Source: Rhizobium sp. NXC14
Lineage (GTDB): Bacteria; Pseudomonadota; Alphaproteobacteria; Rhizobiales; Rhizobiaceae
NCBI RefSeq assembly: GCF_002117485.1
Contig: NZ_CP021033.1
Span: 62,001 to 126,000 of the forward strand
Direction: 5' to 3'
DNA length: 64,000 nucleotides
Shown: one piece after another, positions 7,046 through 18,716 of the stretch
Position numbering within the stretch: position 1 is the first letter of the stretch
How the letters are laid out: each line of letters begins with the position of its first letter
Made by a program: the position numbers and the translations under genes
Notes under the pieces: model-generated
The model's database searches: none
Seen by the model: the letters and a program-made list of their open reading frames with translations, nothing else
What the model was told of the DNA's origin: nothing

Positions 7046-7090
7046 CACGACGGGAGCACGTCAGGCCCGGGCCCCATTATTTCACGCGAC

Positions 7091-7120
7091 GCAATAAACT
7101 CGCAATTATTCTCGCAATTG
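7091..7120 (+). promoter_or_regulatory. GCAAT-23-GCAAT motif, site 1
   Basis: GCAAT boxes start at 7091 and 7114, exactly 23 bp apart, with a third copy between them at 7102. The same 30-bp arrangement recurs at 10061, 11193 and 14488. It lies 88 bp before the start of the alpha/beta hydrolase gene and is a candidate operator of the LysR regulator encoded at 9143-10042. Confidence 0.65.
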
Positions 7121-7207
7121 TGGACGTGAGGAGATGACGGCAATATTACCCCTGTCAGACGAACACAAGTTAGCTGAAGTTTTCAATAACGAAATCGCAG
7201 GACGAAG

Positions 7208-8188
7208 ATGACCCAACCTCACCATTCCATGACCCGCCGAGACGCGCTGTTGTCAATAGGCGCCGCCGCAGCAGCCATGGCAATTTCACCCTCTCTCAGT
7301 TTCGCAGCCAATGCGGCTCCCATCATAAACCCAATCGAAGGATCCAAGAACATGCCATATGTAACCACCAGAGACGGCGTCGAAATCTTCTACAAGGATT
7401 GGGGCTCTAAGGATGCCCAGCCGATCATGTTCCACCATGGATGGCCGCTGTCGTCCGACGACTGGGATGCGCAGATGCTGTTTTTCCTGTCGAAAGGTTT
7501 TCGCGTCGTCGCCCATGACCGGCGTGGCCATGGCCGATCCGCCCAGGTGGCCGACGGTCACGATATGGACCATTACGCAGCCGATGCCTTTGCCGTCGTC
7601 GAGGCGCTCGACCTGAAGAATGTCGTCCATATCGGTCATTCCACCGGTGGCGGCGAGGTCGCCCGTTATGTGGCCAAGCACGGCCAACCTGCCGGCCGCG
7701 TCGCCAAGGCGGTTCTCGTTTCGGCCGTGCCGCCGCTCATGCTCAAGACAGAGGCCAATCCCGAAGGCCTGCCGATGGAAGTGTTCGACGGTTTCCGCTC
7801 GGCACTTGCCGCCAACCGCGCGCAGTTCTTTCGCGACGTTCCGACCGGGCCGTTCTACGGCTTCAACCGGGAAGGCGCCAAGGTGCAGGAAGGCGTGATC
7901 CAGAACTGGTGGCGTCAGGGCATGATGGGCGGCGCCAAGGCCCATTACGATGGCATCAGGGCCTTCTCCGAAACCGACCAGACGGAGGACCTGAAGGCAA
8001 TCACCGTTCCGACGCTCGTCTTGCATGGGGAAGACGACCAAATCGTTCCGATTGCGGACTCGGCGCTGAAGTCGATGAAGCTTCTGAAGAAAGGTTCGCT
8101 GAAGACCTACCCGGGGTTTTCGCATGGCATGCTGACCGTGAATGCCGACGTGCTGAACGCCGACCTGCTGGCCTTCGTCCAGGCCTGA
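7208..8188 (+). CDS. Tat-exported alpha/beta hydrolase (chloroperoxidase-like)
   Basis: Hydrolase of 326 residues resembling cofactor-free haloperoxidases/arylesterases. It begins with a twin-arginine type signal (MTRRDALLSIG, hydrophobic core to about residue 38), and the mature enzyme starts near residue 49. Visible elements: HHGWPLSSDDW, GHSTGGG with the nucleophile Ser145, the acid in HGEDDQIVP (about residue 271) and His in GFSHGML (about 304). It is preceded by regulatory site 1 shared with the dioxygenase and DoxX operons, so it probably takes part in the same response. An internal ATG at 7352 would give a cytosolic form starting MPYVTTRDG; the longer start is supported by the intact signal peptide. 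Confidence 0.85.
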   Translation: MTQPHHSMTRRDALLSIGAAAAAMAISPSLSFAANAAPIINPIEGSKNMPYVTTRDGVEIFYKDWGSKDAQPIMFHHGWPLSSDDWDAQMLFFLSKGFRVVAHDRRGHGRSAQVADGHDMDHYAADAFAVVEALDLKNVVHIGHSTGGGEVARYVAKHGQPAGRVAKAVLVSAVPPLMLKTEANPEGLPMEVFDGFRSALAANRAQFFRDVPTGPFYGFNREGAKVQEGVIQNWWRQGMMGGAKAHYDGIRAFSETDQTEDLKAITVPTLVLHGEDDQIVPIADSALKSMKLLKKGSLKTYPGFSHGMLTVNADVLNADLLAFVQA

Positions 8189-8196
8189 TCGGTCCT

Positions 8197-8230
8197 GGCG
8201 ACGGGGGCGGCCTCCCACGCACCCGTCGCC
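8197..8230 (+). terminator. hairpin behind the hydrolase gene
   Basis: A perfect 9-bp stem (GGCGACGGG with CCCGTCGCC) around a 16-base loop begins 8 bases after the hydrolase stop codon. There is no T-run, so it is a weak or factor-assisted terminator at best. Confidence 0.45.
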
Positions 8231-8364
8231 TCACAAAGATCCACAGGCGCTCGGCGCGCTACCCTCTTCGATAGAAACAGTCCCCGTTAAATGATCAGGC
8301 GACCCCCAAGAACTGCCGGATGCGATGGTCCTTCGGCGTTTATCTCGTTGAAATAATTGCCGCC

Positions 8365-9093
8365 ATGCGAAAAACAACCACCGCCAAGACACCGGTACCT
8401 GTTGCCATGCAACTGACCCCGGACCTCGTAGCCAAAACCTTCAAGCCCGTCGAGGACGAGGGCCCAGAGCCTAACTGGACTCCAATCTCGGGTCAGCGAC
8501 TCGATGAACTCGTCAGCAGAGTAGAGCGGGAGGCTGGTGACGAGGAGATATGGGTGTTCGCTTATGGGTCTTTGATGTGGAACCCGGGCTTCGAAGTAGC
8601 GACAAGTGAAGAAGCCATTGCGTACGGGTGGCATCGTGCGTTCTCGTTGAGGATAGAACGGCTAAGGGCTACCTCCGATGCGCCGGGTCTGATGCTGGCG
8701 CTTCGGCCGGGAGGGAGTTGCTCTGGCCTCGTGCTGAAGCTCCCCTGCGCCACGAAAAGGCAGGATCTGCGTACGCTTCTGGCGCGCGAAATCCGATATG
8801 CCGAGGTGTGCGACATGGTGCGATGGGTTTCGGTCGAGACACCGACGGGTAGACGCCGCGCACTCACATTTTGGGCGAGCACGAAGCGATCACGGCTCAC
8901 GGAGAAGATACCGCTCGACGACGCCGCAGTGTTGATCGCTCAGGCATGCGGACCGGCGGGATCCTGCGCGGAATACCTGCATCGGACGGTCTTGGATCTG
9001 GCTGACCGGAACATCTTCGATCGAAACCTGTGGCAGCTACAGAAAATCGTCGCCGCAAGACTAAGGGCGCTTTCACAGGACGGCTCGATCTGA
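8365..9093 (+). CDS. gamma-glutamylcyclotransferase, ChaC-like
   Basis: ChaC-type protein (about 242 residues) expected to cleave the gamma-glutamyl group of glutathione, releasing 5-oxoproline and Cys-Gly. The diagnostic FAYGSLMWNPGF motif of the family (phosphate/substrate loop) is at about residue 60, followed by the WHRAFS stretch. One difference from the typical family is a serine/cysteine-rich GGSCSGLVLKL where a GxCxGVxY-type segment is usual. Start is uncertain: ATGs at 8320, 8365 and 8407 share the frame and none has a clear ribosome site. Glutathione turnover would suit the electrophile-detoxification genes around it. Confidence 0.78.
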   Translation: MRKTTTAKTPVPVAMQLTPDLVAKTFKPVEDEGPEPNWTPISGQRLDELVSRVEREAGDEEIWVFAYGSLMWNPGFEVATSEEAIAYGWHRAFSLRIERLRATSDAPGLMLALRPGGSCSGLVLKLPCATKRQDLRTLLAREIRYAEVCDMVRWVSVETPTGRRRALTFWASTKRSRLTEKIPLDDAAVLIAQACGPAGSCAEYLHRTVLDLADRNIFDRNLWQLQKIVAARLRALSQDGSI

Positions 9094-9142
9094 GGAAGGT
9101 GTAAGTCTCCTGAGGATCCGTGATGATGCGCGGCGGTGTACG

Positions 9143-10042
9143 TCAATCCAGCATGACCATCTGCGCCGCGACTTGCTCTTCGAAGAATTTCGAGAATGAA
9201 GCGATGCGGGGTGGAAGGGCCTGGTACGGCGGGTAAAACAGCGTCAGCCACAGGTCAGGCGGCGCCCACCCCTTGAAGACGTGGACGAGACGACCGCTCC
9301 TGATGTGATCGGCGATGTTGAATCCTGGGAGCAGTGCGACACCTGCACCGTCGGCGGCCATGTCCGCCAGTACCTCGCCACTGTTGGCGCTGAAGGCCCG
9401 ACCTGCCGAGATCGTGATGCTTGAGCCGCCGTCGGACAATAGCCAGTTCTCGCGCCGGCTTTCGCCACTATAGGCGAGGCAGTCGTCTGGCTTTAGTTCG
9501 TTGGGATGTTGCATATCGGCGAAACGGCTCCCCGGGGCCGCGACCAGGATGCGCGGCACTACCCTGATTTTTCTCCAGATCGTGTACTTGTCCGAAGGCT
9601 GTGATGAGATACGGATCGCCAGATCGTAATCGTCATCGACGATATTCACCAAACCGTCGGACAAGGAAATCTCAAAGCTCATCTTCGGATAGCGTTCCTT
9701 GAAACCTGACAGGATCGGCGGCAGCACGGTCTTGCCGAACCACGTCGGCGCGCTGATCCGCAGCCGCCCTTCGTCGGCCTTGTGTGCATTCATAACTTCG
9801 CGGCGCGCTTCTTCCAGCGTCTTCACCGCTGGCTGGATCTGCGCGGCGAAGATTGCGCCGTCAGTCGTCAGCGAGACTTGCCTTGTCGTGCGCACGAAAA
9901 GCTGCACGCCAAGTTCCGCCTCGAGTGCTGCAATCGCGCGTGTGACGGCTGCCGGCGTCATGTCCAACTCGCGGGCGACCTGGGCGAAATTTCGTTTTTC
10001 AGCAGCGAGCAGAAAGGTTCTGAGGGCTTTGTAATCGTTCAT
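9143..10042 (-). CDS. LysR-family transcriptional regulator
   Basis: Regulator of 299 residues with an N-terminal winged helix-turn-helix (FLLAAEKRNFAQVARELDM, then TRAIAALEAELGVQLFVRTT) and a C-terminal effector-binding domain. It is transcribed divergently from the ring-cleaving dioxygenase gene across 113 bp that contain motif site 2. The same motif stands before three other promoters nearby, so this protein is the best candidate for the regulator of the whole 7.1-16.6 kb cluster. The inducer is not evident; the target genes suggest a quinone or other aromatic electrophile. Confidence 0.9.
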   Translation of the reverse strand: MNDYKALRTFLLAAEKRNFAQVARELDMTPAAVTRAIAALEAELGVQLFVRTTRQVSLTTDGAIFAAQIQPAVKTLEEARREVMNAHKADEGRLRISAPTWFGKTVLPPILSGFKERYPKMSFEISLSDGLVNIVDDDYDLAIRISSQPSDKYTIWRKIRVVPRILVAAPGSRFADMQHPNELKPDDCLAYSGESRRENWLLSDGGSSITISAGRAFSANSGEVLADMAADGAGVALLPGFNIADHIRSGRLVHVFKGWAPPDLWLTLFYPPYQALPPRIASFSKFFEEQVAAQMVMLD

Positions 10043-10060
10043 GTCATTGTTTCAGGATTT

Positions 10061-10090
10061 GCAATTCACTCGAGAGGAATATTGCAATAC
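10061..10090 (+). promoter_or_regulatory. GCAAT-23-GCAAT motif, site 2 (divergent promoter)
   Basis: GCAAT boxes start at 10061 and 10084. Part of the site also forms an imperfect palindrome (GCAATTC with GAATATTGC). Its place between the LysR gene and its divergent target is typical of LysR autoregulatory sites. Confidence 0.7.
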
Positions 10091-10155
10091 CCGATGGCGA
10101 TCAACAGGCGTAGTTTTCAGATGAACAATTTCAATGCCCACTGAAAGGCATCTCC

Positions 10156-11088
10156 ATGATTAAGGACATCAAGGGATTACACCACGTGACTTCGATGGCA
10201 TCGGACGCGCGGCAGAACAATCGCTTCTTCACCGATACGCTTGGTCTGCGCCGCGTGAAGCAGACGGTCAACTTCGATGACCCCAGCGTCTATCACCTCT
10301 ACTACGGTGACGAGACAGGGGCGGCCGGGACAGTGATGACCTATTTTCCATTCCCGAACATGATGCTCGGCCGTCCCGGCGTCGGCGAAGTGGGCGAAAC
10401 ACAGTTCTCCGTGCCGAAGGGCTCGCTGAAATTCTGGCTGGACCGCTTCATCGCTCAAGGTGTGGACGGACTGGAATCTGACACCGTCTTCGGTGCCAAC
10501 CGACTTCGCTTCATGGGGCCGGACGGCGACGGCCTTGCGCTGATCGAGTCCTCCGGTGACACGCGGGCGCCGTGGGTTGCAGATGGAATCCCCGACGACG
10601 CGGCCATTCGCGGTTTCGCTGGCGCTCGTTTCAGCCTTCATGACACCGCTGCGACCGAAGAGCTGCTCGGGTTCATGGGCTACCAGCGCGCTGACAAAGA
10701 GGGCGACGTGACCCGATTCATTATCCCCGACGGCAATGGAGCGGACACGATCGATCTGGCAGCGTTGCCGAAGACGCCTTTTGCGCGCCAGGGCGCAGGT
10801 TCGGTGCACCACATCGCGTTCGCCGTCGAAAACCGCGAGAAGCAGCTCGAGGTGCGCAAGGCGCTGATGGACACCGGCTACCAGGTCACCCCCGTCATCG
10901 ACCGCGATTATTTCTGGGCCATCTACTTCCGCACGCCTGGCGGGGTGCTGTTCGAGGTCGCGACGAACGAGCCTGGCTTCAACCGGGACGAGGATACGGC
11001 GCATCTTGGGGAGGCTCTCAAGCTCCCAAGCCGATACGAGAACTATCGCACCGAGATTCAGGCCAACCTCGTGCCATTGTCGGCGTGA
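10156..11088 (+). CDS. ring-cleaving dioxygenase (MhqO/MhqA-like glyoxalase fold)
   Basis: Vicinal-oxygen-chelate protein of 310 residues made of two glyoxalase-type modules (about 1-130 and 150-300). Probable metal ligands are the His pair in KGLHHVTSMA near the start, the His in GSVHHIAFAV at about residue 220, and Glu in GGVLFEVATN near residue 272. Relatives in Bacillus (MhqA/MhqO) are induced by quinones and azo compounds and are thought to open hydroquinone rings. Transcribed divergently from LysR with shared motif site 2. Ribosome site AAAGG, 7 bases upstream. Confidence 0.85.
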   Translation: MIKDIKGLHHVTSMASDARQNNRFFTDTLGLRRVKQTVNFDDPSVYHLYYGDETGAAGTVMTYFPFPNMMLGRPGVGEVGETQFSVPKGSLKFWLDRFIAQGVDGLESDTVFGANRLRFMGPDGDGLALIESSGDTRAPWVADGIPDDAAIRGFAGARFSLHDTAATEELLGFMGYQRADKEGDVTRFIIPDGNGADTIDLAALPKTPFARQGAGSVHHIAFAVENREKQLEVRKALMDTGYQVTPVIDRDYFWAIYFRTPGGVLFEVATNEPGFNRDEDTAHLGEALKLPSRYENYRTEIQANLVPLSA

Positions 11089-11118
11089 GCAGCAATCTCC
11101 CGTCAAAGCCACGATAAG

Positions 11119-11147
11119 AGCGCCGCGTCCGAAAGGGCCGCGGCGCT
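11119..11147 (+). terminator. terminator behind the dioxygenase gene
   Basis: A 9-bp GC-rich stem (AGCGCCGCG with CGCGGCGCT), 11-base loop, then TTCCATTT, 30 bases after the stop codon. Confidence 0.6.
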
Positions 11148-11192
11148 TTCCATTTCGGCCGCGCTTGCGGTCTAACGATTGTTGCAGATACC

Positions 11193-11222
11193 GCAATTCA
11201 ATGGAAAGTCTTATTGCAATTC
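11193..11222 (+). promoter_or_regulatory. GCAAT-23-GCAAT motif, site 3
   Basis: GCAAT boxes start at 11193 and 11216. As in site 2, the first box extends to GCAATTC and the second is ATTGCAAT. The site precedes the isochorismatase-family gene (start 11405) by about 180 bp. Confidence 0.65.
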
Positions 11223-11404
11223 CGTGGACATCAGCCGTGCGATAAGTTTGTTTTCAGCAGCCAAGACAACGAGTGAGCGGCTCCGAGACGGGTCCAGGAA
11301 CACTTCAAGGTTCGCCGAACCAGGTCGCACCCGCGTCCGATCAATTGCTGCTGCCCATTATAACACCGCAACAGGCGGTCCAAACAACCGAAGAGGAAGT
11401 GACC

Positions 11405-12094
11405 ATGTCCAAGCTCGAAGTCCTGACCCCGGAAAACAGCCAGCTCATCTTTATTGACCAGCAGCCGCAGATGGCATTCGGGGTCCAATCGATCGATCGT
11501 CAGACGCTGAAGAACAATGTCGTCGGCCTCGCCAAGGCTGCCAAGATCTTCAACATCCCGACCACGATCACGACAGTCGAGACGCAATCCTTCTCGGGCA
11601 ACACGTATCCGGAACTCCTCGCCGTGTTCCCCGAGAACGATATCCTTGAGCGCACCTCGATGAACTCGTGGGATGACCAGAACGTTCGTGACGCTCTGGC
11701 GAAGAACGCCGCCAACGGCCGCAAGAAGATCGTCGTCTCCGGTCTGTGGACCGAGGTTTGCAACACGACGTTCGCGCTCTCGGCCCTCCATGATGTCCCG
11801 GAATACGAGATCTACATGGTCGCGGATGCTTCCGGCGGCACGTCCGCGGACGCACACAAATATGCGATGGATCGCATGGTGCAGGCAGGCGTGATTCCGG
11901 TCACCTGGCAGCAGGTCCTGCTCGAGTGGCAGCGCGACTGGGCTCGCAAGGAGACCTACGATGCGGTCACAGCCCTCGTAAAGGAGCATTCGGGCGCGTA
12001 CGGAATGGGCATCGACTACGCCTACACAATGGTTCACGGCGCAGAAGAACGCGTCAAGCACGGCAAGCGCATCGGTCCGAATCCCGCAAAGTAA
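11405..12094 (+). CDS. isochorismatase-fold cysteine hydrolase (YcaC-like)
   Basis: Cysteine hydrolase of 229 residues. The expected catalytic set is visible: Asp in IFIDQQPQMAF (residue 18), a Lys in GRKKIVVSG (about 109), and the nucleophile Cys in GLWTEVCNTTFALSAL (about 118). YcaC-type members are of uncertain substrate; relatives hydrolyse amides or N-carbamoyl compounds. The frame is open from 11273, but the ATG at 11405 is chosen: GAGGAAGTG lies 4-12 bases before it and the protein starts like its family there. It is followed by a strong hairpin and then the XapX gene. Confidence 0.85.
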   Translation: MSKLEVLTPENSQLIFIDQQPQMAFGVQSIDRQTLKNNVVGLAKAAKIFNIPTTITTVETQSFSGNTYPELLAVFPENDILERTSMNSWDDQNVRDALAKNAANGRKKIVVSGLWTEVCNTTFALSALHDVPEYEIYMVADASGGTSADAHKYAMDRMVQAGVIPVTWQQVLLEWQRDWARKETYDAVTALVKEHSGAYGMGIDYAYTMVHGAEERVKHGKRIGPNPAK

Positions 12095-12105
12095 CAGTCT
12101 GATCA

Positions 12106-12134
12106 GACCGTTCCGATCATCCATCGGAGCGGTC
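12106..12134 (+). terminator. strong hairpin between hydrolase and XapX genes
   Basis: A 12-bp stem with one G-U pair (left arm 12106-12117, right arm 12123-12134), 5-base loop, followed by CTTTCCTT. It ends the transcript or makes downstream expression partial, since no separate promoter motif is visible before the XapX gene. Confidence 0.7.
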
Positions 12135-12158
12135 CTTTCCTTAATTGGAGAACATCTC

Positions 12159-12446
12159 ATGAAAATCTATTTAATGTCGCTTGGTGCTGGCCTGCTCGTC
12201 GGGACCGTCTACAGCCTTCTCAACGTCCGATCACCAGCACCGCCTGTCATTGCCCTGGTCGGCCTTCTCGGAATCCTTGTCGGCGAACAAATTATTCCGT
12301 TCGCGAAGACGCTTTGGAGAAACGAGCCGGCGGCGATCTCATGGATTCATCAGATCAAGCCGCACATCTTCGGTCACCTGCCGAAGGGCGGCGACCGCAT
12401 CAACATTGCTCATAAGGCAAAGGCGACTGTAGAGGAGCGGGGCTGA
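12159..12446 (+). CDS. XapX-domain membrane protein (DUF1427)
   Basis: Small protein of 95 residues with two hydrophobic helices at about 3-20 and 30-48, carrying the GxxVGxxYxxxNVRSPAPP signature of XapX-domain proteins. These are widespread and often encoded next to transport or amidohydrolase genes; their function is unknown. TTGGAG lies 8 bases before the ATG. The stop codon overlaps the start of the amidohydrolase gene (ATGA), showing translational coupling. Confidence 0.82.
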   Translation: MKIYLMSLGAGLLVGTVYSLLNVRSPAPPVIALVGLLGILVGEQIIPFAKTLWRNEPAAISWIHQIKPHIFGHLPKGGDRINIAHKAKATVEERG

Positions 12447-14428
12447 TGACCACGCGTCGATCCTTTCTCGGAGGTGCATCGAGTTTGGCCTTCTCGAACC
12501 TCTTCTCACCAGCGAAAGCTGCCGATGCCAGACAGACCGGAGTAGACACTATGCATCCCGACCTGATCCTCCACAATGGCCGCGTGACCACCCTTGACCG
12601 GACCAATCCGAATGCTACGGCAATCGCCATTAAGGATGGGCTGTTCCTCGAAGTCGGATCCGATAGTGAGATCATGGCGCGCGCTGGTTCCAGCACTAAG
12701 ATCATCGACCTCAAGGGCAAGCGCGTTCTCCCCGGCCTCATCGACAACCATACCCATGTCGTTCGCGGTGGCCTGAACTACAACATGGAACTGCGCTGGG
12801 ACGGCGTGCGCTCGCTCGCCGATGCGATGGACATGCTGAAGCGCCAGGTGGCGATCACGCCCGCGCCGCAGTGGGTTCGCGTCGTCGGCGGGTTCACCGA
12901 ACATCAGTTCGCCGAAAAGCGGCTGCCCACTCTCGACGAGATCAACGCTGTCGCGCCTGACACACCCGTGTTCCTTCTGCACCTCTATGATCGTGCGCTG
13001 CTCAACGGTGCGGCTCTTCGCGCTGTCGGCTACAGCCGTGACACCCCGAACCCGTCCGGAGGCGAGATCACCCGCGATGCCAACGGCAATCCGACCGGTA
13101 TGCTGCTGGCCAAGCCGAATGCAGGCATTCTCTATTCGACGCTTGCCAAGGGGCCCAAGCTTCCGTTGGACTATCAGGTCAACTCTACCCGCCACTTCAT
13201 GCGCGAGTTGAACCGACTGGGCGTGACAGGCGTGATCGACGCGGGTGGTGGTTTCCAGAACTATCCTGACGACTATGAGGTCATCCAGAAGCTGTCCGAC
13301 GAGAACCAGATGACGGTTCGGCTGGCCTACAACCTTTTCACGCAGAAGCCGAAGCAGGAGAAGGAAGACTTCCTAAACTGGACGTCCTCGGTCAAATACA
13401 AGCAGGGCAACGATTACTTCCGCCACAACGGCGCCGGCGAAATGCTGGTGTTCTCCGCCGCCGACTTCGAGGACTTCCGGCAGCCGCGCCCGGAAATGGC
13501 GCCGGAAATGGAGGGCGAGCTGGAAGAGGTCGTGCGGGTTCTGGCCGAAAACCGCTGGCCGTGGCGTCTGCACGCCACATATGACGAGACGATCTCCCGT
13601 GCCCTTGACGTGTTCGAGAAGGTCGACAAAGACATTCCGCTCGAGGGACTAAACTGGTTCTTCGACCATGCCGAAACCATCTCGGATCGCTCGATCGACC
13701 GTATCGCCGCGCTCGGCGGTGGTATCGCCACACAACATCGTATGGCATATCAGGGCGAATACTTCGTTGAGCGCTATGGGCACGGCGTGGCGGAAGCGAC
13801 CCCGCCGATCAGGAAGATGCTCGACAAGGGCGTCAACGTCTCGGCCGGCACCGATGCCACCCGCGTCGCCTCCTATAATCCGTGGGTCTCGCTGTCGTGG
13901 ATGGTGACTGGCAAGACGCTCGGCGGCATGCAGCTCTATCCGCGGGCCAATTGCCTCGACCGCGAGACGGCGCTCAGGATGTGGACCGAAAAGGTCACAT
14001 GGTTCTCCAACGAGGAAGGCAAGAAGGGCCGCATCGAGAAAGGGCAGTTCGCCGATCTCGTGGTGCCGGACAAGGACTTCTTCTCCTGCGCCGAAGACGA
14101 GATCTCCTTCATCGTCTCGGAGTTGACCATGGTCGGCGGCAAGATCGTCTACGGCGCGGGTGACTTCAAGACGCTTGACGAGAACGACATTCCGCCCGCG
14201 ATGCCCGACTGGTCGCCTGTCCGCAAGTTCGGCGGATACGCGGCCTGGGGTGAACCGGAAGGCGCGGGCGCTCGTTCGCTGCGCCGCACCGCTATCTCTA
14301 CATGCGGATGCGCCAACGATTGCAGCGTTCACGGCCACGACCATGGCGGAGCCTGGACATCCAAGCTCCCGATAGCCGACCTCAAGGGCTTCTTCGGCGC
14401 TCTCGGCTGCTCCTGCTGGGCAGTCTGA
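12446..14428 (+). CDS. Tat-exported metal-dependent amidohydrolase (YtcJ-like)
   Basis: Amidohydrolase-superfamily enzyme of 660 residues. A twin-arginine signal (TTRRSFLGGASSLAF) is followed by the beta-sandwich segment (residues 38-95), the metal-binding DNHTHVVRGG (His102 and His104), a long TIM barrel with WFFDHAETISD and SAGTDATR near the end, and the C-terminal return to the sandwich (FADLVVPDKDFF). This matches YtcJ-like hydrolases acting on amides or carbamates. Odd feature: the last 45 residues hold five cysteines and two histidines (TCGCANDCSVHGHDHGG and GCSCWAV), a likely extra metal-binding tail. Substrate unknown. Confidence 0.82.
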   Translation: MTTRRSFLGGASSLAFSNLFSPAKAADARQTGVDTMHPDLILHNGRVTTLDRTNPNATAIAIKDGLFLEVGSDSEIMARAGSSTKIIDLKGKRVLPGLIDNHTHVVRGGLNYNMELRWDGVRSLADAMDMLKRQVAITPAPQWVRVVGGFTEHQFAEKRLPTLDEINAVAPDTPVFLLHLYDRALLNGAALRAVGYSRDTPNPSGGEITRDANGNPTGMLLAKPNAGILYSTLAKGPKLPLDYQVNSTRHFMRELNRLGVTGVIDAGGGFQNYPDDYEVIQKLSDENQMTVRLAYNLFTQKPKQEKEDFLNWTSSVKYKQGNDYFRHNGAGEMLVFSAADFEDFRQPRPEMAPEMEGELEEVVRVLAENRWPWRLHATYDETISRALDVFEKVDKDIPLEGLNWFFDHAETISDRSIDRIAALGGGIATQHRMAYQGEYFVERYGHGVAEATPPIRKMLDKGVNVSAGTDATRVASYNPWVSLSWMVTGKTLGGMQLYPRANCLDRETALRMWTEKVTWFSNEEGKKGRIEKGQFADLVVPDKDFFSCAEDEISFIVSELTMVGGKIVYGAGDFKTLDENDIPPAMPDWSPVRKFGGYAAWGEPEGAGARSLRRTAISTCGCANDCSVHGHDHGGAWTSKLPIADLKGFFGALGCSCWAV

Positions 14429-14438
14429 CGAACATTCA

Positions 14439-14463
14439 GCTCGGGTGGCCAACTGCCGCCCGA
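14439..14463 (+). terminator. hairpin behind the amidohydrolase gene
   Basis: A 10-bp stem with one G-U pair (CTCGGGTGGC with GCCGCCCGAG) and a 5-base loop begins 10 bases after the stop codon. The T-run (TGTTTTTGC) comes only about 17 bases later. Confidence 0.5.
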
Positions 14464-14487
14464 GAGCCGCCCATAATTGCTGTTTTT

Positions 14488-14517
14488 GCAATTAAATCGA
14501 AACTATTGCTGCAATTG
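14488..14517 (+). promoter_or_regulatory. GCAAT-23-GCAAT motif, site 4
   Basis: GCAAT boxes start at 14488 and 14511, the same 23-bp spacing as sites 1-3. It stands 73 bp before the DoxX-MFS operon. Confidence 0.65.
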
Positions 14518-14589
14518 TTGGCAAGGCGGTAGCCAGCCAATATCGCTCCATCGAACACAGCCGCTCGCGGCGGACATACAGGAGCCGAC

Positions 14590-15033
14590 ATGACCTACCA
14601 ATCTCAATCATCCAATCCAATCCGGAGCCGCGTGGCAGGCGTCGTCGAATCGCCTGTGGTGCGAACGGCGTCGCTGCTGGCTCTTTGCGCAGCCTACATC
14701 CAGGGTCCGCTCACCAAGATGTTCGACTTCAACGGTGCACTGGCTGAGATGGATCATTTCGCTCTGCATCCCGCCGCGTTCTTCGCGATCGCCGTGATCG
14801 TATTCGAGCTGACGGCCTCCGCCATGGTGATCTCGGGTTTCCTGCGCTGGGCGGGCGGGCTTGCGCTTTCAGGCTTCACCCTACTTGCAACCTTCATCGC
14901 CCTTCGCTTCTGGGAGATGGCGCCTGGGATGGACCGCATGATGGCCACCAATGCCTTCTTCGAGCACCTCGGCCTCGCAGGCGCATTCGTCTTCGTTACA
15001 GCATTCGACCTCACCAAGGGAGCAGGCAAATGA
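14590..15033 (+). CDS. DoxX-family membrane protein
   Basis: Membrane protein of 147 residues with four predicted helices (about 22-38, 55-75, 80-100 and 115-137). The GPLTKMFDFNGALAEM loop after the first helix and the glycine-rich third helix are typical of the DoxX/SURF4-like family. DoxX proteins are commonly co-encoded with quinone- or thiol-stress genes. AGGAG lies 5 bases before the ATG. Its stop overlaps the MFS start (ATGA at 15030), so the two are coupled, and both lie behind motif site 4. Confidence 0.82.
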   Translation: MTYQSQSSNPIRSRVAGVVESPVVRTASLLALCAAYIQGPLTKMFDFNGALAEMDHFALHPAAFFAIAVIVFELTASAMVISGFLRWAGGLALSGFTLLATFIALRFWEMAPGMDRMMATNAFFEHLGLAGAFVFVTAFDLTKGAGK

Positions 15034-16628
15034 GCGCCGCAAAATCATCCGGGGGAACCTTCGCGCCCCTCGCACAGCCCGTGTTCGCCGTCCTGTGGAT
15101 CGCCACCGTTATTGGTAACACCGGAAGCTTCATGCGCGATGTCGCAAGCTCCTGGCTGATGACGGATCTGTCCGCATCGCCGGCTGCGGTCGCCATGGTC
15201 CAGGCTGCCGGAACCCTGCCGATCTTCCTGCTTGCCATCCCCGCAGGCGTTCTGACCGACATCCTCGATCGCCGCAAGTTCCTGATCGCCATCCAGGTGC
15301 TACTCGCCTCTGTCAGCATGGCGCTGATGGTTCTCTCTCAGACGAGTATGCTTTCCGTCAGCGCGCTGATCGGTCTCACATTCCTCGGCGGGATCGGTGC
15401 TGCGCTGATGGGACCCACCTGGCAGGCGATAGTGCCGGAACTCGTGAAACGCGAGGACGTGAAGAGCGCGGTGGCGCTGAACTCGCTCGGCATCAACATC
15501 GCCCGCTCCATCGGGCCTGCCGCGGGTGGCCTGCTTCTCGCAGCCTTCGGAGCCGGGATCACCTATGGCGCGGACGTGGCCAGCTATATCGTCGTGATCG
15601 CAGCTCTTGTCTGGTGGCCGCGGGCAACGAACTCCAACGATGCGCTTCAGGAGAACTTCTTTGGTGCGTTCCGAGCCGGCCTCCGTTACACCCGCGCGAG
15701 CGAGCCGCTGCACGTCGTGCTTATGCGGGCGGCGATCTTCTTTGCCTTCGCCAGCGCAGTCTGGGCTCTTCTTCCGCTCGTTGCCCGCCAACTGCTCGGT
15801 GGTGATGCGAGCTTCTACGGCATCCTGCTTGGTGCGGTCGGTGCTGGTGCGATCGGCGGTGCCTTGGTGATGCCGAAGCTGCGTGCACGCTTGAGCTCGG
15901 ACGGCCTGCTCCTCGGCTCAGCGCTTGTCACAGCAGCCGTCATGGGTCTGCTTGCTCTCGCTCCACCGAAGTGGGTTGCGATCGTCGTCCTTCTTTTCCT
16001 CGGGGGAGCGTGGATCACGGCGCTGACGACGCTCAACGGCACCGCCCAGGCTGTGCTCCCGAACTGGGTGCGTGGTCGTGGTCTTGCTGTCTATCTGACC
16101 GTCTTCAATGGTGCGATGACTGCCGGAAGCCTCGGCTGGGGTGCTGTCGGCGAAGCCGTAGGCATCCAGTCGACCCTGCTCATCGGAGCTGGCGGCTTGC
16201 TCATCGCCGGGTTCATCATGCACCGACTGAAGCTTCCCTCGGGGGATGCCGACCTGGTGCCGTCCAACCACTGGCCGGAGCCGCTTGTTGCCGAACCGAT
16301 CGCTCATGACCGCGGCCCGGTTCTGATCCTGATCGAATACAAGGTCGAGAAGCAGCACCGCACAGCCTTCCTGCACGCAATCGATCATCTTTCCAGGGAG
16401 CGGCGCCGCGATGGTGCCTACGGATGGGGCATCACCGAGGATTCCGCCGATCCCGAGAAGATCGTTGAGTGGTTCATGGTGGAATCCTGGGCTGAACATC
16501 TTCGCCAGCACAAGCGGGTCTCGAACGCCGACGCCGATCTGCAAGGGAAGGTTTTGGCTTACCATGTCGGTGCCGAAAAACCTGTCGTCCGGCACTTCTT
16601 GGCAATCAATCGGCCCGCGGCGGCATGA
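15030..16628 (+). CDS. MFS exporter (EntS-like, MFS_3) with C-terminal soluble domain
   Basis: Major facilitator of 532 residues. The first 400 or so residues form about 11-12 membrane helices with the family motif DILDRRKFLIA in the 2-3 loop and LNSLGINIARSIGPAAGG in helix 5. The last 110 residues (from RGPVLILIEYKVEK) form a soluble domain resembling the antibiotic-biosynthesis-monooxygenase/dimeric ferredoxin-like fold, a tail present in many MFS_3 exporters. It probably exports a small hydrophobic or aromatic compound. Translation is coupled to doxX by a 4-base overlap. Confidence 0.85.
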   Translation: MSAAKSSGGTFAPLAQPVFAVLWIATVIGNTGSFMRDVASSWLMTDLSASPAAVAMVQAAGTLPIFLLAIPAGVLTDILDRRKFLIAIQVLLASVSMALMVLSQTSMLSVSALIGLTFLGGIGAALMGPTWQAIVPELVKREDVKSAVALNSLGINIARSIGPAAGGLLLAAFGAGITYGADVASYIVVIAALVWWPRATNSNDALQENFFGAFRAGLRYTRASEPLHVVLMRAAIFFAFASAVWALLPLVARQLLGGDASFYGILLGAVGAGAIGGALVMPKLRARLSSDGLLLGSALVTAAVMGLLALAPPKWVAIVVLLFLGGAWITALTTLNGTAQAVLPNWVRGRGLAVYLTVFNGAMTAGSLGWGAVGEAVGIQSTLLIGAGGLLIAGFIMHRLKLPSGDADLVPSNHWPEPLVAEPIAHDRGPVLILIEYKVEKQHRTAFLHAIDHLSRERRRDGAYGWGITEDSADPEKIVEWFMVESWAEHLRQHKRVSNADADLQGKVLAYHVGAEKPVVRHFLAINRPAAA

Positions 16629-17792: not shown

Positions 17793-18716
17793 TCAGATGA
17801 TCTGTTCCGGCGGACGATCTTTGCCGACGTTTTCCGCAAGGAAATCTATGAAAGCGCGAATGCGCGCCGCGAGGTGCTCGTACCCGGCGAATACTGCGTG
17901 GATCAATTCGATGTCTTCAGGATTGTATTCTTCCAGCACGGGGATGAGTAACCCAGAGTCGATCTCTGGCTCAACATGAAATTGGCCGATCCGAGCCAAA
18001 CCAACGCCGGCAAGGCACAGCCTGCGTATGGCCATTCCGCTGTTGACCGCGCTGTTGCCGGATACGGGCAACCGATACATCTCGGTCGATCCCGGCGCTC
18101 GAAAGGGCCACTCGTTGAGCGTTCGGCGGAAATTGAAAGTCAGGCAATTGTGGCCAGCGAGATCGGCCGGTGTCTTTGGTATGCCATGGGCATCCAGATA
18201 GGCCTGAGATGCAACAATGACGCGCCGGCTTTCAAGGAGTTTTCGGGCTTTCAGTGACGAATCTTCCATGGGGCCGGAGCGGATCGCAATGTCGGTCCGC
18301 TCTTCGATCAAGCCAATGACGCCGTCCGAAAGTGATATGTCGAGTTGCACTTCGGGATAGAGTTTGAGGAACTTCGGGACGAGCGGGAGGAGATAGCGTT
18401 CACCAAAGCCAACGGAGGCATTGACCCTGAGAATCCCTCGCGGCGCGACTTTTCTGCCAGACGCGATGATCCGTTCAGTCTCCGCAATGTCGCCCAGGAT
18501 TCGCCGGGCTCTCTCCAGATAAATTTCGCCTTCCGGCGTGAGCGTCATCGTGCGGGTTGAGCGGACGAGCAGTCGCGTTCCTAGCCGGTCCTCAATCCTG
18601 GTGACAAGCTTGCTCACCGCCGAGGGCGAAAGTTTCAGGCGCCGTCCGGCCGCCGAAAAACTCTGCAATTCCGCCGCATTTACAAATACTTCCATTTCAC
18701 CAGTGCGATTATCCAT
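17793..18716 (-). CDS. LysR-family transcriptional regulator
   Basis: Regulator of 307 residues: N-terminal winged helix (FVNAAELQSFSAAGRRLKLS, then SKLVTRIEDRLGTRLLVRST) and a substrate-binding-like effector domain, closest in style to the CrgA/AaeR subgroup that controls efflux of aromatic compounds. It is divergent from the MFS efflux gene, with a perfect 7-3-7 palindrome in the spacer, so it probably controls that gene and itself. Confidence 0.9.
   Translation of the reverse strand: MDNRTGEMEVFVNAAELQSFSAAGRRLKLSPSAVSKLVTRIEDRLGTRLLVRSTRTMTLTPEGEIYLERARRILGDIAETERIIASGRKVAPRGILRVNASVGFGERYLLPLVPKFLKLYPEVQLDISLSDGVIGLIEERTDIAIRSGPMEDSSLKARKLLESRRVIVASQAYLDAHGIPKTPADLAGHNCLTFNFRRTLNEWPFRAPGSTEMYRLPVSGNSAVNSGMAIRRLCLAGVGLARIGQFHVEPEIDSGLLIPVLEEYNPEDIELIHAVFAGYEHLAARIRAFIDFLAENVGKDRPPEQII

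Follow-up and report, generated by a model that had tools for sequence, protein, structure and literature searches.

Which protein reads a motif that recurs in front of four promoters of one gene cluster in Rhizobium sp. NXC14, and what would it control? The cluster lies in a stretch of 64,000 nucleotides (contig NZ_CP021033.1, positions 62,001 to 126,000; the window, G000:C4:62001-126000, G000 being our handle for this genome of 6,686,318 bases). A preliminary description of the window had recognized two GCAAT boxes separated by 18 bases, taken them for a 30-bp layout and proposed a probable LysR regulon of about eight genes. Our analysis places these boxes in a longer element and makes it very likely that the four copies are operators of the LysR-type regulator encoded in the same cluster (9143-10042, minus strand, called here LysR1), a protein that would activate four transcription units in a co-inducer-dependent way and most likely repress its own gene.

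The pattern GCAAT-N18-GCAAT, searched on both strands of the window, matches exactly four times and always on the plus strand (7091, 10061, 11193 and 14488), as had been described, and all four sites are intergenic and lie ahead of the genes that the preliminary description had named. The internal identities listed there (A at position 8, T at 10, G at 12, A at 15 and T at 20) are indeed common to the four sites, and one of these, operator 2, does occupy an autoregulatory position, its left end being three bases away from the LysR1 start codon. The dimensions of the motif had to be revised. The two boxes with their 18-base interval make a core of 28 bp, to which the figure of 30 bp adds two flanking bases, and a further conserved half located 7 bp upstream of the first GCAAT had been missed (7076 ATTATTTC, 10046 ATTGTTTC, 11178 ATTGTTGC and 14473 ATAATTGC), so that the two boxes are only part of an element of about 45 bp. 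In the intergenic alignment of relatives the conserved block starts 15 bases ahead of the first GCAAT, and the consensus is ATTATTkC-N7-GCAATtmAaTcGaaA-N2-AwTrtTGCAATT, over 45 bp. Twenty-three sites from eight genomes align over these 45 columns without a gap, 12 columns being invariant. The element is not the simple direct repeat that the boxes had suggested: its upstream part, ATTKC-N7-GCAAT, is an inverted repeat containing a T-N11-A LysR box, and the second GCAAT is a downstream box. T-N11-A is a form of the LysR box described in passages of PMC8407307 and PMC5031710.

Two models of the element were used, a sequence-only model of the full 45 bp (R1) and a position weight matrix (PWM) built separately from 19 sites outside the window. 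They were complemented by a set of named loci, the best 80 of 146 with LysR1 (1,443,153 bases), which come from Rhizobium, Sinorhizobium/Ensifer, Agrobacterium, Neorhizobium, Shinella, Allorhizobium and other genera. T-N11-A is found in the four window sites and in 179 of the 181 distinct sites of the named loci, whereas both GCAAT boxes are exact in only 133 of the 181; the exact double GCAAT is therefore not the most constant part of the element. The mean majority-base fraction is 0.79-0.89 within the site, 0.38-0.57 over the 20 bp upstream and 0.60-0.66 over the 60 bp downstream. Two other boxes were rejected, their cores being missing from all four sites. The nod box of NodD is, like the LysR1 operator, a long LysR-family operator; unlike it, it has an ATC-N9-GAT core, which is absent from the four sites extended by 10 bp on each side. 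The FNR/FixK box, TTGAT-N4-ATCAA, was not found at any of the four.

How rare is the element? The bare GCAAT-N18-GCAAT pattern has 17 matches in the whole genome, only four of them here, and therefore would not define a regulon by itself. When the internal positions were added and up to 3 mismatches allowed, the genome yielded the four sites and one further match, at 3 mismatches. With the 45-bp model the preliminary concern that the motif might occur at random through the genome can be set aside: R1 returned the four sites with E values from 4.7e-10 to 1.2e-7, and the sole other match had E=1.87. The PWM, which contains no window site, scored the same four, and only these, at 42.7-60.4 bits; no other position of the 64 kb reached 3 bits. 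Dinucleotide shuffles of the window gave a mean of 0.30 matches to the bare pattern and a maximum of 3, so that none of 100 reached four. In the 80 named loci the PWM gave 227 matches of at least 25 bits, against none for each of 20 column-permuted PWMs and none for the reversed one.

The element accompanies LysR1 across genomes. This protein has an N-terminal HTH_1 and a C-terminal LysR_substrate domain, both above the Pfam cut-offs, and a search of the other 150 Rhizobiaceae genomes (E<=1e-70) found close orthologues (82-97% identity) in seven and distant homologues (42-52%) in 15; for 20 of these 22 matches the surrounding 17-kb regions were used, G024 and G125 (42%) being omitted. R1, run over the 151 genomes with strict filters through which weak sites may be lost, matched 13. 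The eight genomes with a close LysR1 (82-100%) all have 2-5 sites, but this is so by construction, because the R1 sites came from those genomes, and the weight of the co-occurrence consequently rests on the near-absence of matches elsewhere, on sites outside the model and on the named loci. Among the 143 genomes without a close LysR1 only five match R1, and in two of them (G050 and G142) the match is directly beside a 45% LysR1 homologue. G029 and G017 belong to genera in which other genomes have LysR1, and show neither a LysR1 match nor a motif match. An orthologue of the amidohydrolase of the cluster occurs in 21 of the 151 genomes, 13 of which have no close LysR1, and none of these 13 has an R1 match. 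The search in related rhizobia that the preliminary description had called for thus indicates that the motif accompanies LysR1 rather than a target gene by itself. Sites outside the model exist in LysR1 genomes, for example before the alpha/beta hydrolase on other contigs (L168 and L170). In one genome (G054:C12:55602-57581, L182), LysR1, the VOC gene and the isochorismatase gene stand together with an operator; the amidohydrolase (85%) is on another contig, where R1 has no match.

In 67 of 67 loci the regulator gene stands next to the VOC dioxygenase-like gene and points away from it, 111-134 bp separating the two. Beyond the close orthologues, the LysR-VOC intergenic regions of distant loci (45-52%) contain the dyad with at most 2 of 16 mismatches in 12 of 12 examined, against none of 2400 mononucleotide shuffles; the thirteenth distant locus (L056) was omitted, having no VOC match. 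The wider regulon appears to belong to the close LysR1 clade, because the distant one shows the element only at the VOC promoter. A class-wide search for LysR1 (E<=1e-70, 385 genomes) found only the own genome and no intermediate clade. An intermediate was found instead on a Paracoccus plasmid, which encodes a 67% LysR1 with a 43.3-bit site between it and the VOC gene, and pSymA of Sinorhizobium meliloti 1021 (L197) carries LysR1 (a 93% orthologue, NC_003037 199108-200004), VOC, isochorismatase-XapX-amidohydrolase and DoxX-MFS with three sites. We also observed that, in the distant clade, the operator in the LysR-side intergenic region includes a near-perfect palindrome (L053 8937-8964, reading GCAATAATATTG-A-CAATATTATTGC; L055 8206-8233; L056 9851-9878), and box symmetry therefore differs between the clades.

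The sites also fall before particular genes. A gene was counted when a site of at least 25 bits lay within 450 bp upstream of its match in the 80 named loci; the counts exclude gene matches below 55% identity or starting less than 400 bases from the locus end, and include some split matches twice (the 68 VOC matches represent 67 loci). Under this rule a site precedes VOC in 68/68, DoxX in 50/54, isochorismatase in 39/66 and the hydrolase in 37/49, against 0/62 for the amidohydrolase, 0/62 for XapX, 1/51 for MFS and 1/36 for ChaC. The hydrolase figure is an undercount, since its misses in L094, L096, L097, L122 and L131 have a site just upstream. The intermediate value for isochorismatase resolves with distance: in the 58 loci where VOC and isochorismatase each gave a single match and both matches share a strand, the isochorismatase has its own site in 31 of 31 where the gap to VOC is at least 271 bp and in none of 27 where it is at most 167 bp, as would be expected if close-set isochorismatase genes were transcribed from the VOC promoter. 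In L044 the hydrolase gene is located after MFS and has retained its site.

Thirty-five of the 227 PWM matches were not assigned to a gene type of the window. Inspection of the frames downstream of sites in 23 of the 80 named loci and in 11 genome loci revealed operators before DUF1275 (L074, L082, L087, L104), Ribonuc_L-PSP (L068, L069, L083, L137), which we take to be RidA-like, DUF1622 (L068, L161) and an exported protein that is VOC-like by eye (L124, L136). These types were established by Pfam on one member each and the others grouped by eye; the exported VOC-like protein had no Pfam match. The regulon is therefore larger in other genomes. For the window, the placement counts, the genome scan and the co-occurrence support in silico the proposed LysR regulon, which is probably small, of about eight genes and autoregulated. 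Sites lie ahead of four units; the ChaC-like gene has none.

How would the element act? In all four promoter classes of the named loci a near-invariant dinucleotide, TA or CA, occupies nucleotides 21-22 past the last site column. We read it as the first two bases of a -10 hexamer, an assignment that rests on cross-genome conservation, and assume a start site about 7 nt after the hexamer. In the four window promoters, -35-like hexamers (TTGTGG, TACCCG, TTCCGT and TTGTTG) lie 17 nt before the -10-like one and, the start sites so predicted put the box centre at -66 and have the downstream box span -39 to -34 in every case. According to passages of PMC8407307, a LysR regulator usually occupies 50-60 bp, its T-N11-A recognition site being often near -65 and its activation site at -35/-10, and it is because the predicted geometry fits this layout that we propose co-inducer-dependent activation of the four units. 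One dimer of a LysR1 tetramer would occupy the recognition site ATTKC-N7-GCAAT, centred near -66, and the other the downstream TGCAATT box, which abuts the -35-like element. Binding of a small co-inducer, most likely a quinone, a catechol or a related aromatic or electrophile, would shift the tetramer and activate the VOC dioxygenase, isochorismatase-XapX-amidohydrolase, DoxX-MFS and exported alpha/beta hydrolase units. At the divergent promoter LysR1 binding would most likely repress lysR1, because of the three bases that separate operator 2 from its start codon. The features are listed in Table 1.

Table 1. Predicted operators, -10-like elements and genes of the cluster (window coordinates)
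Feature	Position	Strand	Remarks
Operator 1	7076..7120	+	ATTATTTC-N7-GCAAT ... GCAATTG; upstream of exported alpha/beta hydrolase; R1 35.2 bits, E 1.2e-7 in own genome
Operator 2	10046..10090	+	Within LysR1/VOC divergent intergenic region; R1 36.8 bits, E 3.7e-8 in own genome
Operator 3	11178..11222	+	Upstream of isochorismatase-XapX-amidohydrolase; R1 40.8 bits, E 2.0e-9 in own genome
Operator 4	14473..14517	+	Upstream of DoxX-MFS; R1 42.8 bits, E 4.7e-10 in own genome
-10-like element CAATAT	7141..7146	+	Predicted; 20-nt spacer after operator 1; position conserved in 36 hydrolase promoters
-10-like element TAGTTT	10111..10116	+	Predicted; 20-nt spacer after operator 2
-10-like element TAAGTT	11243..11248	+	Predicted; 20-nt spacer after operator 3
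-10-like element CAATAT	14538..14543	+	Predicted; 20-nt spacer after operator 4
LysR-type regulator LysR1, proposed cognate regulator	9143..10042	-	Pfam HTH_1 70.8 bits (cut-off 26.6), LysR_substrate 119.2 bits (cut-off 28)
Alpha/beta hydrolase (esterase / non-heme chloroperoxidase type)	7208..8188	+	PF00561; 1zoi E 1.1e-131, 1a88 E 4.5e-130; twin-arginine-like leader by eye
ChaC-like gene	8320-9093		PF04752; between hydrolase and LysR1; no operator
VOC-family ring-cleaving dioxygenase-like, MhqO-like	10156..11088	+	Closest solved structure MhqO 3oaj, E 2.4e-70
Isochorismatase-fold hydrolase, YcaC-like	11405..12094	+	PF00857; 1yac YcaC E 5.7e-27
XapX / DUF1427 small protein	12159..12446	+	PF07235, TIGR03510
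Amidohydro_3 amidohydrolase	12446..14428	+	PF07969 443.6 bits; twin-arginine-like leader by eye
DoxX-family protein	14590..15033	+	PF07681
MFS_3 transporter, overlapping DoxX end	15030..16628	+	PF05977 795.1 bits

To the right of operator 2 we noticed GATCAA (10099-10104), whose ATCAA part persists in 6 of 7 close VOC intergenic regions and forms a conserved block across 65 sequences. Its minus strand, TTGATC, may be the -35 of lysR1, whose -10 would then fall within operator 2.

Several points weigh against LysR1 as the activator at these promoters, or reduce the force of the evidence for it. A consensus scan found no sigma-70-type promoter on the plus strand between 7000 and 16700, and the lysR1 start codon is so close to the box that the 5' end of lysR1 is uncertain. 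The downstream box, proposed as the second contact, differs between DoxX-type and VOC-type sites. R1 was built from the same eight genomes that then score, the 80 named loci were chosen for having LysR1 and therefore cannot alone demonstrate co-occurrence, and 5 of the 80 are probably the same contigs as in the model genomes. Related genomes are not independent, and the Fisher values of 2.3e-10 and 4.9e-6 are descriptive only. Three genomes (G034, G132 and G150) have weak R1 matches and no LysR1 match. Five of the 13 genomes with the amidohydrolase and no close LysR1 (G045, G057, G071, G117 and G138) do have a 46-48% homologue, and in the distant clade no site was found before isochorismatase and DoxX at <=1 box mismatch (L052, L053, L054 and L056).

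Could the sites then have another owner, LysR1 being a mere neighbour or a target? Another class of regulator could share the operator, and in L042 and L043 another LysR-type gene stands between VOC and isochorismatase. The window itself encodes a second LysR (17793-18716), 29% identical to LysR1, which we rejected as a shared regulator: in G128, a genome with five sites, a search at E<=1e-110 does not find it, and it is absent at >=60% identity from all 80 LysR1 loci (<=9 kb on each side). Whether the owner were this protein or an unlinked one, it would have to accommodate a T-N11-A LysR box at LysR-like spacing, a motif that tracks LysR1 across genomes and is missing together with it from G029 and G017, and a distant LysR clade with the same dyad at the same place; we therefore consider another owner unlikely. 

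Far less credit can be given to the readings in which the sites are not operators at all. Four similar copies within 7.4 kb of one replicon might recall a mobile or structural repeat, of the miniature inverted-repeat transposable element (MITE) or repetitive extragenic palindrome (REP) kind, that landed by chance before four genes. Such a repeat would hardly be limited to four significant copies in the genome, nor be retained at orthologous promoters where the adjoining 20 upstream bp have diverged, nor move with its genes as in L044, nor be missing exactly where isochorismatase sits close behind VOC; genome-wide counts, permuted PWMs and gene-by-gene placement led us to reject it as extremely improbable. 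The chance similarity of AT-rich promoter DNA, for which one may invoke the 13 other genome matches of the bare pattern, has a negligible probability in view of the genome-wide counts, the shuffles and the permuted and reversed matrices. Operator function under LysR1 is compatible with yet another role for the regulon, the breakdown of a particular aromatic or amide substrate instead of detoxification. A ring-cleaving-type VOC, an isochorismatase-fold hydrolase, an amidohydrolase and a transporter could indeed form a pathway, and we hold this to be a possibility of some weight. The twin-arginine-like leaders, recognized by eye, of two of the enzymes, the DoxX and MFS proteins, which suggest stress or efflux, and the additional targets elsewhere (Ribonuc_L-PSP, DUF1275 and DUF1622), unlike the members of one pathway, speak against it.

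A role in quinone or aromatic stress is our best guess, and the label 'detoxification/quinones' of the preliminary description is plausible from the enzyme families. The guess is based on the VOC protein being nearest to MhqO, since the MhqR regulon of quinone defence comprises MhqO-type dioxygenases and the alpha/beta hydrolase MhqD (passages of PMC6798810), and on the DoxX-family gene yqjF, which is controlled by the LysR-type YhaJ with inducers that include hydroquinone and catechol (passages of PMC5031710).

Comparison with these systems reveals both kinship and distance. The YhaJ regulon of E. coli (yqjF, yhaK, ygiD, yhhW and ybiJ) resembles that of LysR1 in having a LysR-type regulator divergent from a target and a T-N11-A box, TCA-N7-TGA, at several promoters including that of yqjF (passages of PMC5031710). 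In the K-12 sequence we found TCA-N7-TGA at yhaJ-yhaK and at yqjF, the latter being annotated as DoxX-family. The half-sites differ, TKC-N7-GCA in the window versus TCA-N7-TGA, and unlike those of YhaJ the LysR1 targets include an MhqO-like VOC, an isochorismatase, XapX and an amidohydrolase. Orthology of the two regulators was rejected, a 61-residue match in the DNA-binding domain (33%, E 1e-5) being the only significant one. The MhqR regulon of Bacillus subtilis and Staphylococcus aureus (mhqNOP, mhqED, mhqA, azoR2) likewise comprises ring-cleavage dioxygenases together with an alpha/beta hydrolase; its regulator, MhqR, is a repressor of the MarR type whose palindrome of 9-9 bp is located at the start site (passages of PMC6798810), whereas LysR1 is LysR-type and its operator lies upstream of the -35-like element. 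The layout predicted here also resembles that of generic LysR promoters, whose recognition and activation binding sites (RBS/ABS) comprise a T-N11-A box near -65 and a second one at -35, spanning about 50 bp, and whose regulator gene is divergent (passages of PMC8407307), but here one specific 45-bp consensus is found at four separate promoters with an almost constant geometry.

The mechanism itself would be ordinary for a LysR regulator, the operator most likely letting LysR1 switch on a few enzymes and transporters at the same time. What is gained is a specific 45-bp operator and a testable regulator-target map common to many Rhizobiaceae, S. meliloti 1021 included; the regulon is often plasmid-borne, as on pSymA, and is found in several genera of the family. 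It is apparently undescribed: no description turned up in the literature searched, most subscription papers being outside the reach of that search. Tentatively, it could serve the Rhizobiaceae as the MhqR and YhaJ regulons serve their own hosts in quinone defence, which would place XapX/DUF1427, DUF1275, DUF1622, the Ribonuc_L-PSP/RidA-like and the exported VOC-like proteins in one response to electrophiles or plant phenolics. Since several families of unknown function would be under one switch, a single mutant and a single inducer screen could assign them roles.

Two minor features of the cluster may be added. Several relatives, for example L045-L048, showed no ChaC-like gene near LysR1. The proposed operon contains, in the interval from isochorismatase to XapX, a terminator-like hairpin (12106-12134; 12 pairs, 7 of them G-C, and a T-rich tail) that could reduce XapX-amidohydrolase expression; it may also be due to chance, because the scan gave 6 such sites against 7.4 expected.

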